Of a DNA stretch of 48,163 nucleotides, positions 51 through 48,163 are shown in pieces. A program made the position numbers and the translations under genes. Position 1 is the stretch's first letter; each line of letters opens with the position of its first letter. The stretch is from a virus, in IMG/VR virus record IMGVR_UViG_3300040958_000041, positions 1-48,163 of that record. One strand, given 5' to 3'. The notes under the pieces were generated by a model, which saw only the letters and a program-made list of their open reading frames with translations, was not told where the DNA came from and did no database searches.

Positions 51-78
51 CTTGAACTTCTCACGGCTCACCCCATAT
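51..78 (+). promoter_or_regulatory. sigma-32 (heat-shock) promoter of host htpG
   Basis: CTTGAA at 51-56 and CCCCATAT at 71-78 are separated by 14 bases. This matches the known sigma-32 pattern CTTGAA-N(13-17)-CCCCATNT. It lies about 40 bases upstream of the htpG start at 121, and htpG is a classical sigma-32 gene in enterobacteria. No terminator is visible between this promoter and the integrase at 399, so its transcript should run into the prophage. Confidence 0.85.
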
Positions 79-120
79 TAAGTGCATAACGCAGACACTT
101 TGCAAATTGGAGATACATAA

Positions 121-201
121 ATGACTGCAGCACAAAAAGAAACATTAGGCTTTCAAACAGAAGTAAAACAACTATTAAACTTAATGATTCATTCTATATA
201 G
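121..201 (+). pseudogene. htpG: 5' fragment of htpG (Hsp90 chaperone), interrupted by the prophage
   Basis: The ATG at 121 follows a GGAG ribosome site nine bases upstream. The 26-codon reading frame ends at TAG (199-201). Its residues include GFQTEVKQLLNLMIHS, the near-invariant N-terminus of bacterial HtpG, which normally continues LYSNKEIF and runs to more than 600 residues. The bases after the break (tatatagtaac) still resemble the expected YSN codons, but out of frame. The integration core is therefore probably at about 190-206, inside the GHKL ATPase domain coding region. The remainder of htpG should lie beyond the right end of the prophage and is not in this window. The encoded peptide is unlikely to function. 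Confidence 0.85.
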
Positions 202-216
202 TAACTCCGCACTAAA
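188..216. other. probable attL (host/prophage junction)
   Basis: Similarity to htpG coding sequence stops around 195-206, and the integrase gene starts about 195 bases further on. This is the normal arrangement for a tyrosine-integrase prophage. TCCGCACTAAA at 206-216 recurs at 299-309, and both copies are preceded by CTATATA, giving a direct repeat of about 25 bases with a three-base gap (194-219 and 291-312). The repeats may be core-type or arm-type integrase sites. The exact core cannot be fixed without attR or an uninfected strain. Confidence 0.6.
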
Positions 217-343
217 TATTTATACCCCGCAATAATTAATCTTATCAGTTTTAAATCAATCACTTAAATAGTATTTATGGCGTTTTAACGCTATATAATC
301 CGCACTAAACATGACTATTATAGATAGCAACTGCGTACCAAGC

Positions 344-382
344 TGTGTACCATTAATTAATTAAACTAAAATTTGGTACACA
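344..382. repeat. 9-bp inverted repeat just upstream of the integrase
   Basis: TGTGTACCA (344-352) and TGGTACACA (374-382) are exact reverse complements separated by 21 AT-rich bases. A partial third copy, GCGTACCA, lies at 333-340. The element ends three bases before the integrase ribosome site (cggag, 385-389). Binding by Int or Xis, or control of int expression, is plausible; no specific protein is indicated. Confidence 0.5.
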
Positions 383-398
383 TTCGGAGTTAATACCA

Positions 399-1595
399 GT
401 GAATATAACGGCGGCAAAGCTTAAGAGTATAAGCGGCAAAACCTACGATGGCGCGGCGGAGGTTTCCGACGGTGATAACTTATCGCTGCGCATTTCACCC
501 AAGGGTAAAATCACATTTCAAATACGATTTAGATTAAACGGCAAGGCTGTACGCTATAAGCTGGGGACTTACCCTGAGCTTACACTTGCTAAAGCGCGTG
601 AAGAATGCGAAGCGCATATGGCCCAAGTTAGAAAGGATCTTGATCCTCGTAAAATGAAAGCGGTTAACAGCGTTGCGGTACTTGATAATAAAAACCCTAC
701 GCTTATGGATGCGATTAACTATTGGTACACACTTTACTGTGAACCTATGCGCGATAACCCTAAAGGTATTTTTCATCGCATTACGTCGTGCATTAATGAG
801 CAGTGGCGAGATCAATATATATCAGAAATTAATAAGCAGCATTTTTCTGCTTTGTTTAAATCCATAAATGATGAAAGCTTATTGGGTAAACGGGGCAGTG
901 GCTTTTCGTTTAATGCGATTATTGAGCTTAGATCGGCGCTTAGGTTTTGTTTGCGCCAGGGGTTTATTAATAACGCTGAGTTTGAAGCACTAAGACCAAG
1001 TGACTTTGCGACTGACTACATGCCGCGCGAGCACTTTTTAACAATAGAAGAGTGTAAGTTGATTTGGTCTAACATCGATAACCTTGCTTTAACTGATAGA
1101 AACAAAGTTATTTTACGCTGTGTTATGGTGTTTGGTTGTCGTATTAGCGAGCTATACACGGCTTTTAAAGATGACTTTGATTTAACAAACCAGTTATTCA
1201 CTGTGCGCAGAGAAAATACAAAAGGGGGCGTGCACTCTATTGTTAGGCCAATACCCGTTATATTAATTGAAGATCTGCAGCATATTAAAAGCTTAACACC
1301 TGCCTTTAAGTACATGTTTAATAATAGAGGGGGTGATAAGCCGGCTAGCGGTTCGAGCGTTAGTTTAATTGCTAATGCCTGCTATGAAAACATAGAGGGC
1401 TTAAGGCCGTTTAGAATGCACGATTTTAGACGAACCATATCAACGCACTTAACCGATGCGGGATGCCCTTTGCAGTTTACTGAAAAATTGCTAGGGCACA
1501 AAATGAAAGGCGTACTGGCGATATACAATAAATCGCCAATGCTTGATGGCTTAACTGAGTGGGTGAATAAGTGGGTTGCTATGATCACTAAGTAG
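399..1595 (+). CDS. int: tyrosine integrase
   Basis: This 398-residue site-specific recombinase would insert and excise the prophage at the htpG site. Residues 1-90 form a DUF4102-type arm-binding domain (IRFRLNGKAVRYKLGTYPEL). Residues about 95-200 form a SAM-like core-binding domain. The catalytic domain shows R249 (GCRISEL), K275, H341-x-x-R344 (HDFRR), H367 (LLGH) and the nucleophile Y376. All active-site residues are present, so the enzyme looks intact. The start is GTG at 399 with cggag nine bases upstream. It is transcribed away from the attL junction in the same direction as the interrupted htpG, so the host heat-shock promoter at 51-78 reads into it. It converges with the excisionase-like gene at 1609. 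Confidence 0.95.
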   Translation: MNITAAKLKSISGKTYDGAAEVSDGDNLSLRISPKGKITFQIRFRLNGKAVRYKLGTYPELTLAKAREECEAHMAQVRKDLDPRKMKAVNSVAVLDNKNPTLMDAINYWYTLYCEPMRDNPKGIFHRITSCINEQWRDQYISEINKQHFSALFKSINDESLLGKRGSGFSFNAIIELRSALRFCLRQGFINNAEFEALRPSDFATDYMPREHFLTIEECKLIWSNIDNLALTDRNKVILRCVMVFGCRISELYTAFKDDFDLTNQLFTVRRENTKGGVHSIVRPIPVILIEDLQHIKSLTPAFKYMFNNRGGDKPASGSSVSLIANACYENIEGLRPFRMHDFRRTISTHLTDAGCPLQFTEKLLGHKMKGVLAIYNKSPMLDGLTEWVNKWVAMITK

Positions 1596-1601
1596 CAGCG
1601 C

Positions 1602-1632
1602 CAAGCCATTAAGCGCTGTGCTTAATGGCTTG
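1602..1632. terminator. hairpin between convergent int and early operon
   Basis: CAAGCCATTAAG (1602-1613) pairs perfectly with CTTAATGGCTTG (1621-1632) around a 7-base loop. The hairpin sits at the convergence point of int and the leftward operon and overlaps the last codons of the latter. Neither strand has a strong T-run, so termination would be weak or factor-assisted. Confidence 0.5.
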
Positions 1633-1812
1633 CTCGTTCATATCTCTGTAGTGTTTGTCTATTACTGCTTTTAACCAGCGGTGCGGCCTGCCTACGTGCG
1701 TAGGCTTTATAAATTCGCCTTTGCTTACTTGTTTACGCAAGTAATCCTCTGTTACGCCCTCAAAGGCAGCCACTTCTTTAGTCGTGTAAAATTTGCTAGA
1801 TGGTAAACTCAT
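1609..1812 (-). CDS. excisionase-like small HTH protein
   Basis: This 67-residue protein contains FYTTKEVAAFEGVTEDYLRKQVSKGEF...GRPHRWLKAVIDKHY, which is the MerR/AlpA-type winged helix found in phage excisionases. Such proteins bind attachment DNA and direct the integrase toward excision. The start at ATG 1812 is favoured over the longer frame (1851). It has TTGGAG upstream, and its ATG overlaps the TGA of the preceding gene (ATGA), like most junctions in this operon. It is the last gene of the leftward operon and converges with int, so it would be made only when the repressor is inactivated. The role is inferred from fold and position; a transcription regulator is the alternative. Confidence 0.7.
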   Translation of the reverse strand: MSLPSSKFYTTKEVAAFEGVTEDYLRKQVSKGEFIKPTHVGRPHRWLKAVIDKHYRDMNEQAIKHSA

Positions 1813-1991
1813 TTGTCGCTCCAAGGGTAAAGAAGAAGTAAAATAGGCCATAACAATACGGCAGCCATGTAAACAGGTAAGCTTACTTCGTCGCTTTTAC
1901 CCGTCATGTAAACAAAACTAAGTCCGCACTTTATGTAAAAACAACATAAAATGAGTGCGACGATTAAAAATATTATTGCGTCATTGCTCAT
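1809..1991 (-). CDS. small two-helix membrane protein
   Basis: A 60-residue protein with two hydrophobic segments, about 5-28 (AIIFLIVALILCCFYIKCGL) and 38-56 (VYMAAVLLWPILLLLYPW). It should lie in the inner membrane. The ribosome site is strong (GGAGG, nine bases from ATG 1991). The start overlaps the stop of the upstream gene and the stop overlaps the start of the excisionase-like gene, so it is translationally coupled on both sides. No family is recognised. Small membrane proteins in phage early operons often affect superinfection or host physiology, but nothing here identifies a target. Confidence 0.7.
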   Translation of the reverse strand: MSNDAIIFLIVALILCCFYIKCGLSFVYMTGKSDEVSLPVYMAAVLLWPILLLLYPWSDK

Positions 1992-10826: not shown

Positions 10827-11501
10827 TTAAAAATCTTGTATTACCTGCTTTACCACCCCAATAATAGTGCAGTTTCCGTTAATTGGCATAGTGGGGTAGC
10901 TGTTATTAAACGGTTTTAAGTACTTGGTTCCGCCATCTATAACAAGCTGCTTTAGCGTGGCTTCTTCACTGTCGTCTAACATGGCCACAACCACTTTACT
11001 GTGCTCGGCCTGCATATTTGGATCAACAATAATTACTGAACCTTCAGGGATTGACTTACCGCCCGTAAAGCTGGTCATGCTGTCGCCTTTTACACGCAGT
11101 GCAAATGCGTTCTCACTCACGTTAGCGGTATGTTGATAAAACGTAGTATCTGCTTGGTGCAAGCTTTCCATATCTATTTCTTTCCATTTACCTGCTTGCA
11201 CCCATGAAATTAACGGCGCTTGACCTCTTAAGTCGGGGCCCAGCTCTAATTCTACATTTTTATTAGGTGATCCCTTGCCTTCCATTAGCCAAGACACGTT
11301 GCACCTTAATATTTTTGCTAATTTAACAGCGTTTTCACCGCCAGGCTTGCCTATTCCATTGACCCACTTACTCACCGTACTTTTAGTTATCCCTAGCTTG
11401 CGGTGAATTTCAGCAGCTTTTATTTCGCAGGCTTCCATTTGGGAGTTCAGTCGTTCTTCAAATGACATAACTTTTATTTCTAAGTTCACATAGGGAAACA
11501 T
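10827..11501 (-). CDS. CI/LexA-type phage repressor
   Basis: 224 residues from ATG 11501, which has AAAGGA five bases upstream (ATG 11468 is an alternative; the frame to 11534 uses GTG inside the operators). Residues about 25-65 hold a helix-turn-helix (AAEIHRKLGITKSTVSKWVN). The C-terminal half is an S24 peptidase domain with Ser141 (GDSM) and Lys184 (ATLKQL). A likely self-cleavage site is Ala103-Gly104 (WVQAG). It would bind the GGAAAC operators at pL and pR, maintain lysogeny, and cut itself when RecA filaments form, so SOS induction is expected. It is divergent from cro. Confidence 0.93.
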   Translation of the reverse strand: MFPYVNLEIKVMSFEERLNSQMEACEIKAAEIHRKLGITKSTVSKWVNGIGKPGGENAVKLAKILRCNVSWLMEGKGSPNKNVELELGPDLRGQAPLISWVQAGKWKEIDMESLHQADTTFYQHTANVSENAFALRVKGDSMTSFTGGKSIPEGSVIIVDPNMQAEHSKVVVAMLDDSEEATLKQLVIDGGTKYLKPFNNSYPTMPINGNCTIIGVVKQVIQDF

Positions 11502-11508
11502 AATAGTC

Positions 11509-11575
11509 CTTTTGGAGTTTCTTTTGGTTGACACTTGCGCCTTTTACAGCGTACACTTTTGGAAACTATTTCTTT
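11509..11575. promoter_or_regulatory. right operators flanking pR
   Basis: Two operator-like sequences: CCAAAAGAAACTCCAAAAGG read on the - strand (11528-11509), and TTTTGGAAACTATTTCTTT (11557-11575), an imperfect inverted repeat GGAAA-CTA-TTTCT. Both share the (G/A)GAAAC core with the three sites at pL. One abuts the -35 of pR and the other follows its -10. Confidence 0.6.
11528..11557 (+). promoter_or_regulatory. rightward early promoter pR
   Basis: TTGACA (11528-11533), an 18-base spacer, then TACACT (11552-11557). The start site would fall near 11565, about 25 bases before the cro ATG at 11590. It is overlapped by the operators. Confidence 0.75.
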
Positions 11576-11589
11576 AAAAGGTTCGCACA

Positions 11590-11805
11590 ATGAAATTTTC
11601 TGACGCCATTAAGTATTTTGATGGAGATCGTGAGGCTCTTGGCGCCTCTTTTCTATTCCCTGTTAATAAATCGACCGTTAGTAAGTGGTTTAAAGCGGGG
11701 CGTCTTCCTTATGCTCGCGCGATAGAGCTTGAAAAAGAAACCAACGGCGCACTAAAAGTTGACCTTTCACTTTATGAAAGTGATCAACCCAAATCAGCAG
11801 CATAG
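11590..11805 (+). CDS. Cro-like repressor
   Basis: 71 residues with a Cro/YdaS-type helix-turn-helix in the middle (LFPVNKSTVSKWFKAGRLPYARAIELEKET, seen in part). It is the first gene of the rightward operon and divergent from the repressor, the standard cro position. It would bind the shared operators and turn down repressor synthesis when the lytic programme starts. The start ATG 11590 is the first after pR. Confidence 0.85.
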   Translation: MKFSDAIKYFDGDREALGASFLFPVNKSTVSKWFKAGRLPYARAIELEKETNGALKVDLSLYESDQPKSAA

Positions 11806-47100: not shown

Positions 47101-47116
47101 AATCAACACTATTTTA

Positions 47117-48163
47117 CTATGTGTTTTTAGCTCTTTGTATCCAGCGGTCAACAGTTTCATTCGTGTTAGTTGCATGAATTGTAATTTCAGGGTGTTTTCT
47201 TGCAAAAACACGAAATATTTCATCTGCGAAGGCTTGGCCTATTGTATCTATTTCGCTAAAGTCCAACATAACAATTTTGAACTTGTCCAAACTAGATAAA
47301 ACGCGCTTTGCTTGAGATCTAGAAACAAGGTTTTCTTTACCTTGGATAGCTAAGCGAATTGGAACTACTGTTTTTGAGAACGAAAACTCGTCAGCTGGAG
47401 CGTATTCGTCAAAAACTTTTTGTTGACTGGTTTCGCTATTAGAACTGATTTGCATCTCCACAATTGTACCCTCCACGTCATTATTATGTTCAAGTAAAAA
47501 ATCATGAGAATTGTCTTTGTCATGATTGAAAATATGTCCTGATGAGTAGATATAAAAGTGATCAAAAACTCTTGATGTAAAGTAAATTCCTTCACCAGTA
47601 TGATTGTCTGGATCAGTTGTCAATTTACCTTTAGATAACTCCAGTATTGATTCTTTTTCACTGCCAAGCTCTTTTAAACGAGCTATCCTTTTAAAAATAC
47701 CTTCCCCAGTATCATGCACCATAATATCAACTTCATCATTATGGATACTTGCGCACACATTTAACATCGATGAGTCAGAGTGATCAATTGCATTATTGAC
47801 CATCTCAGTAAAACCATAAAAGCAAATTTCGTGAACGTTTTTTGGCAATGTTTCGAAAATATGCTCAAATTTTTCCCAAATAATATGCTCATCTAACTTA
47901 TTGTTTTTATCCATATTAAAACAATCGTAGTGCGCTCGATTTTTGCCAAGCTTATATGTTCTCGCACTTGTATTTCCATGAGCTTCAATATAGCCAAGAC
48001 TAATCAAATTCTTGATTATTTTACTGATTGTTTGCCTAGAGACCCCTAATGCTGCTGAGCAGACTTTGCTAAAATGCGGAACATCTTTAGAAACAAGAGA
48101 TAAAATTTGTCTTTCATTCATTGAAAGTTTATTGATTATACAATAGCTTTGGTTAAGTTCCAT
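47117..48163 (-). CDS. winged-helix / HATPase / STAS-like (DUF4325) protein
   Basis: 348 residues to the window edge; ATG is exactly the last three bases, so the true start could lie outside. Residues 10-75 form a winged helix (FSKVCSAALGVSRQTISKII). Residues 85-215 form a GHKL ATPase with N box EMVNNAIDHS, G1 DTGEGIF and G2 HTGEGIYF. The C-terminal 75 residues match the STAS-like DUF4325 domain (FKIVMLDFSEIDTIGQAFAD). There is no histidine-kinase phosphorylation domain, so it resembles an anti-sigma/anti-anti-sigma-like switch fused in one chain. It lies outside the late operon on the opposite strand, the usual place for a lysogen-expressed accessory gene. Confidence 0.82.
   Translation of the reverse strand: MELNQSYCIINKLSMNERQILSLVSKDVPHFSKVCSAALGVSRQTISKIIKNLISLGYIEAHGNTSARTYKLGKNRAHYDCFNMDKNNKLDEHIIWEKFEHIFETLPKNVHEICFYGFTEMVNNAIDHSDSSMLNVCASIHNDEVDIMVHDTGEGIFKRIARLKELGSEKESILELSKGKLTTDPDNHTGEGIYFTSRVFDHFYIYSSGHIFNHDKDNSHDFLLEHNNDVEGTIVEMQISSNSETSQQKVFDEYAPADEFSFSKTVVPIRLAIQGKENLVSRSQAKRVLSSLDKFKIVMLDFSEIDTIGQAFADEIFRVFARKHPEITIHATNTNETVDRWIQRAKNT

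Follow-up and report, generated by a model that had tools for sequence, protein, structure and literature searches.

Bxb1 in groEL1 and a Listeria prophage in comK each disrupt the host coding gene that they occupy. SXT/R391 re-supplies the start of its target, prfC, a location reportedly worked out by Hochhut and Waldor in 1999. These integrative and conjugative elements use a tyrosine recombinase, aided by Xis, and enter the conserved gene prfC at its 5′ end (PMC2791158). Islands and prophages that target dusA enter this conserved gene at its 5′ end and replace that end with element sequence, and putative promoters are present before and after insertion (Farrugia et al. 2015, PMC4482086). 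Control of integrase transcription by an alternative sigma factor is known from Staphylococcus aureus prophages, in which the int promoter uses sigma factor H (PMC2869324).

The stretch of DNA analyzed here (the window) is a 48,163-base virus record from IMG/VR, which covers less than a whole genome. It very probably contains the attL of a temperate Pseudoalteromonas phage that integrates into the Hsp90 gene htpG and restarts this gene at attR with a promoter and N-terminus of its own.

The left junction and the integration module

Bases 1–191 of the window are host DNA, corresponding to the 5′ region of htpG in two uninfected Pseudoalteromonas genomes, L038 and L039. The features of this junction and of the adjoining phage genes are as follows.

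51..78, + strand: heat-shock (sigma-32 type) promoter of host htpG, CTTGAA-N14-CCCCATAT (from sequence)
109..113, + strand: host htpG ribosome binding site, GGAGA (from sequence)
121..201, + strand: orphaned htpG 5′ stub, ATG at 121, 26 codons and then TAG (similarity search and sequence)
182..191, + strand: attL crossover core TAATGATTCA, 10 bp, common to attB, attP, attL, and attR
333..351, + strand: two integrase arm-type sites of the P arm (GCGTACC, GTGTACC), 12 bp apart (alignment of members)
375..381, − strand: inverted arm-type site, GGTACAC, immediately before int (alignment of members)
399..1595, + strand: tyrosine integrase, 398 aa, GTG start (Pfam PF13356 and PF00589; phrog_1 integrase)
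1602..1632, no strand assigned: perfect 13-bp hairpin lacking a T tract, between the convergent int and xis (fold −23.4 kcal/mol, z −4.2)
1609..1851, − strand: Xis-like protein, 80 aa (phrog_66 excisionase and transcriptional regulator, E 1.5e-5)
10827..11534, − strand: CI-type repressor with an S24 peptidase domain (Pfam; phrog_4)
11590..11805, + strand: Cro-like regulator (Pfam P22_Cro)

The host promoter fits the sigma-32 consensus CTTGAA-N13/15-CCCCATnT and is the sole match to CTTGAA-N13/16-CCCCATnT on either strand of the window. It is conserved in the genus, where uninfected genomes have it in the same place. Codons 1–25 of the stub align to the HtpG N-terminus (E 3e-11); the stub reads MTAAQKETLGFQTEVKQLLNLMIHSI, and its stop, the TAG at 199–201, is supplied by phage DNA a few codons past the core. 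The core itself sits in htpG codons 21–24, near the beginning of the coding region of this conserved gene, and flanking differences among the four att sites place the switch from host to phage within it. The integrase is intact, with both expected Pfam domains (Arm-DNA-bind_3 and Phage_integrase). No terminator-like site was found between 1 and 399 of the window, nor between stub and int in five relatives, which with the window make six members. An earlier note on this DNA had described a sigma-32 promoter, a ribosome site, and 25 HtpG codons, then a switch to phage DNA and an intact integrase with no terminator in between, and the analysis bears out that description in full.

GTACCA occurs at +153 and +165 from the core in the window, L003, L010, and L014. 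Among seven aligned members the copy at +165 is present in all and the copy at +153 in four, and the spacing from core to arm sites is fixed. Repeats of the GTACCAAA type also precede int where related integrases have other targets, so the arm motif belongs to the integrase. Farther along, the hairpin between int and xis may limit the antisense read-through into xis that the earlier note gave as a caveat.

The phage-carried htpG start

In relatives, attB, attP, attL, attR, and open fused genes can all be observed. The attB sequence is CTATTAAACTTAATGATTCACTCGCTTTATTC, from uninfected L038 and L039, and attP is GGCAAGCTATTAAATCTAATGATTCATTCTATACAG in L003, whose integrase is 99% identical to that of the window; attL is the window itself. 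The fourth site, attR, was found in L136, a contig of the same phage type (99.9% DNA identity to L003 over 797 bp of the phage part) that then reads into host htpG. Further copies of attP are present in L139, L140, and L141, and no similar attP region was found among 50,697 isolated phage records.

Left of the core, L003 has no host htpG. In its place are a heat-shock-type promoter, two arm sites (GTGTACC repeats 12 bp apart, within the replacement start), a ribosome site, and an open reading frame, MTDNKNITKHEFGSDTGKLLNLMIHSIQ followed by a stop, that stands where the host stub would be. This replacement start, an ATG and about 26 codons, is in frame with the core. In L136 the same promoter and N-terminus are fused in frame into LYSNKEIFLREL, and the fused HtpG frame remains open for ∼555 codons before diverging near the C-terminus, possibly at an insertion or a metagenome assembly join. 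The replaced segment aligns to the N-terminal end of Escherichia coli HtpG and stops before LYSNKEIFLREL; the catalytic Glu34 of HtpG remains host-encoded after the exchange.

An integrase search recovered three Pseudoalteromonas relatives (L010, L011, and L014) with the stub before the integrase. Among 108 genomes of the genus, five contain the series of stub, prophage, and fused open htpG, and in a sixth the fused end lies close to a contig edge. Where a single contig holds both prophage ends, they are 41–60 kb apart. In all five lysogens the phage-encoded promoter, ribosome site, and N-terminus join the rest of htpG in frame. Because the fused gene (open for 641–670 aa) is the sole full copy of htpG in each, htpG is kept in these lysogens. 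As a side observation, the right-end region of one htpG-inserted prophage, L158 (G003), has no protein match to the window, unlike those of G001 and G041; the htpG-specific integration module may therefore be carried on differing phage backbones.

The right end of the window departs from this arrangement. Its phage sequence matches L003 and L136 up to base 47103 and then gives way to a cargo gene:

47117..48163, − strand: cargo gene (HTH, HATPase, and STAS-like DUF4325; Pfam)

This gene occupies the place where L003 and L136 lead into the replacement htpG start, and attR of the window's prophage lies beyond base 48163, outside the record. Because the cargo gene replaces the segment leading to attR, we infer the replacement start of this prophage from its closest relatives. 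The close relatives G111–G114, also IMG/VR records, likewise end before attR. No relatives of the cargo gene were found in the viral contigs searched, and 9 of the 108 genus genomes gave weak partial matches (29–36% identity over about 55–95 residues). The stretch from the last large phage gene to attR carries variable cargo genes, as seen in the window (47117–48163) and at the right ends of L156–L159.

Could lysogeny nonetheless silence the chaperone? The earlier note had proposed that the prophage inactivates htpG and that a heat-induced integrase makes excision, and with it htpG restoration, responsive to temperature, a form of active lysogeny. The prophage does interrupt the gene at codon ∼23, leaving the heat-shock promoter of the host pointing into the integrase with no terminator found between them, so the interruption stands. 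Neither the knock-out nor the restoration of htpG by excision is supported: relatives, including L136 of the same phage type with its phage N-terminus in frame at attR, rebuild an open htpG with a start and a heat-shock-type promoter of phage origin, and the closest attP, in L003, already carries the replacement start. The lysogens of this family have a fused open htpG rather than a target left without a functional copy, and a check for a second complete htpG returned the fused gene as their only complete copy. We consider inactivation very improbable.

Whether the replacement start is a working gene start is a separate matter. It could be a chance reading frame kept for the att arms, with the fused htpG poorly made and its promoter outside heat-shock regulation. 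Arm sites and attP geometry do constrain part of the same DNA, and the phage −10 element (CACAATAT) differs from the sigma-32 consensus CCCCATAT; measured against CTTGAA-N13/15-CCCCATnT, the phage promoter matches in its −35 element and spacing, with C(A/T)CAATAT as −10. The codons argue otherwise, with pN/pS of 0.33 over codons 2–22 and 0.23 over codons 7–22. These values indicate purifying selection and therefore conservation of the protein, beyond that of att DNA alone. CTTGAA-N14/15-C(A/T)CAATAT also lies at a similar distance, 98–113 bp before the phage ATG, in all eight distinct phage versions, and none of 16,000 dinucleotide shuffles matched it. Finally, 21 uninfected genomes from two host clades have no obvious htpG promoter other than one of the CACAATAT form, which argues that the phage form works. 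A chance frame is thus quite unlikely, and the phage promoter is predicted to be sigma-32 dependent and heat-induced.

The reading that we prefer, restart of htpG by the phage, can be put as a mechanism. The integrase would recombine the 10-bp core within htpG codons 21–24, with the phage holding a spare htpG start on the other side of the attP core. Integration would leave the host promoter and stub before the integrase at attL and rebuild a full htpG with the phage promoter and N-terminus at attR, so that one heat-shock-type promoter and N-terminus would be swapped for another. The window's prophage would rebuild htpG in the same way at its right end. Sigma-32 would drive both promoters; transcription of the integrase would start at the host promoter in lysogens and at the phage copy when the phage is circular. 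The integrase does lie downstream of a heat-shock-type promoter both in attL, where it is the host's, and in attP, where it is the phage's. Heat control of the integrase is plausible from this layout and, because attP sets the phage's promoter before the integrase, would extend to the free phage.

Phage-type htpG starts in uninfected genomes

Nine uninfected genomes (L070, L075, L085–L088, L090, L093, and L098) have phage-type htpG 5′ regions, in which two strict GYGTACC arm sites and a promoter of the CACAATAT form precede htpG. Their N-terminus is MTTENTKENHSFSANTKQ or nearly so, and in seven of the nine, recR lies about 232–238 bp upstream of the core with no prophage between. A second uninfected clade (n = 12), with the N-terminus MSDIKNKENHQFGTDVGK, is identical to the L084 phage start at 23 of 26 residues and has the same promoter form, with arm sites in degenerate form only. 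We suggest that the phage-type starts in the nine genomes are probably scars of old prophages.

The alternative is that these starts are ancestral host sequence that was captured by the phage, which would alter only the interpretation of the uninfected clades. Three divergent Pseudoalteromonas genomes and Algicola have arm-free N-termini of the KENHxFGTD type, and other Alteromonadales have N-termini of the FSADTGKLL type, which is consistent with such a capture. The arms themselves point the other way: GYGTACC sites precede htpG in nine of nine members of one uninfected clade and in none of 34 canonical Pseudoalteromonas and none of 23 other-family htpG regions, and the GTACCAAA-type repeats go with related integrases at other targets. 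On an rpoB tree the phage-type clades also stand apart from each other, scattered amid canonical relatives, although some nodes are weak (0.73–0.89, some lower). Capture of the coding part from host to phage is a possibility that we take seriously while judging it the less probable, and scars are the simpler reading.

Five small genes lie between recR and htpG in the MSDIKN clade (L154, 11436–14289; L155, 11915–14327), and two of them are apparent HTH regulators. These interval genes were considered as prophage remnants and set aside, having no meaningful similarity to lysogen right-end genes.

Scars of this kind would mean that phages have a route by which to alter both the promoter and the opening segment of a core gene of their hosts, with likely traces in uninfected species. 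We tentatively extend this to the possibility that the integrase of this phage family is tied to the host heat-shock sigma factor at all times, through the spare start that attP carries and that integration exchanges for the host's, and that repeated integration and decay have replaced the Hsp90 heat-shock promoter and N-terminal segment across entire host lineages. The N-terminal strand of Hsp90 swaps between protomers in the ATPase cycle, and for this reason exchange of the N-terminus may alter chaperone activity.

Relation to known integrative elements

Overall, the phage appears to preserve a stress chaperone by bringing a heat-shock-type promoter and N-terminus rather than breaking the gene, and its integrase comes to lie behind a stress-type promoter whether the phage is integrated or circular. 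This arrangement opens the way to a direct test of heat shock as a driver of integration or excision. We found no report of htpG as a phage attachment site in the literature searched. What appears to be new is the chaperone target, the replaced heat-shock-type promoter, the position of the integrase after such a promoter in prophage and circular phage alike, and the likely scars in uninfected lineages.

Bxb1 and the comK prophage resemble the htpG phage in occupying a host coding gene, in one case that of a chaperone, but they disrupt it, whereas htpG is rebuilt in the relatives studied here. The S. aureus prophages share the use of a host alternative sigma factor to govern integrase transcription, which is predicted for the htpG phage; their int promoter is the phage's own, however, is not exchanged with a host gene, and uses a different sigma factor (PMC2869324). 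Alternative-sigma control of an integrase is thus already known, as are elements that replace the 5′ end of their target (PMC4482086). The in-frame start and N-terminal codons supplied by elements of that kind are present in L003, L136, and the five lysogens, and an element-supplied promoter is indicated by its sequence motif. Elements of that kind would also give back the original gene on excision, and for the htpG phage both an attP and an attB sequence exist. Like the htpG phage, SXT/R391 has a tyrosine recombinase and Xis and enters the 5′ end of a conserved gene, but it is a conjugative element and its target encodes release factor 3 (PMC2791158). The dusA islands share 5′-end entry and replacement of the gene start; they differ in target and integrase family, and the section of their description that was consulted mentions no replacement of a heat-shock promoter (PMC4482086). 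The htpG phage is best filed with these 5′-end-replacing elements, the dusA islands and SXT in prfC.
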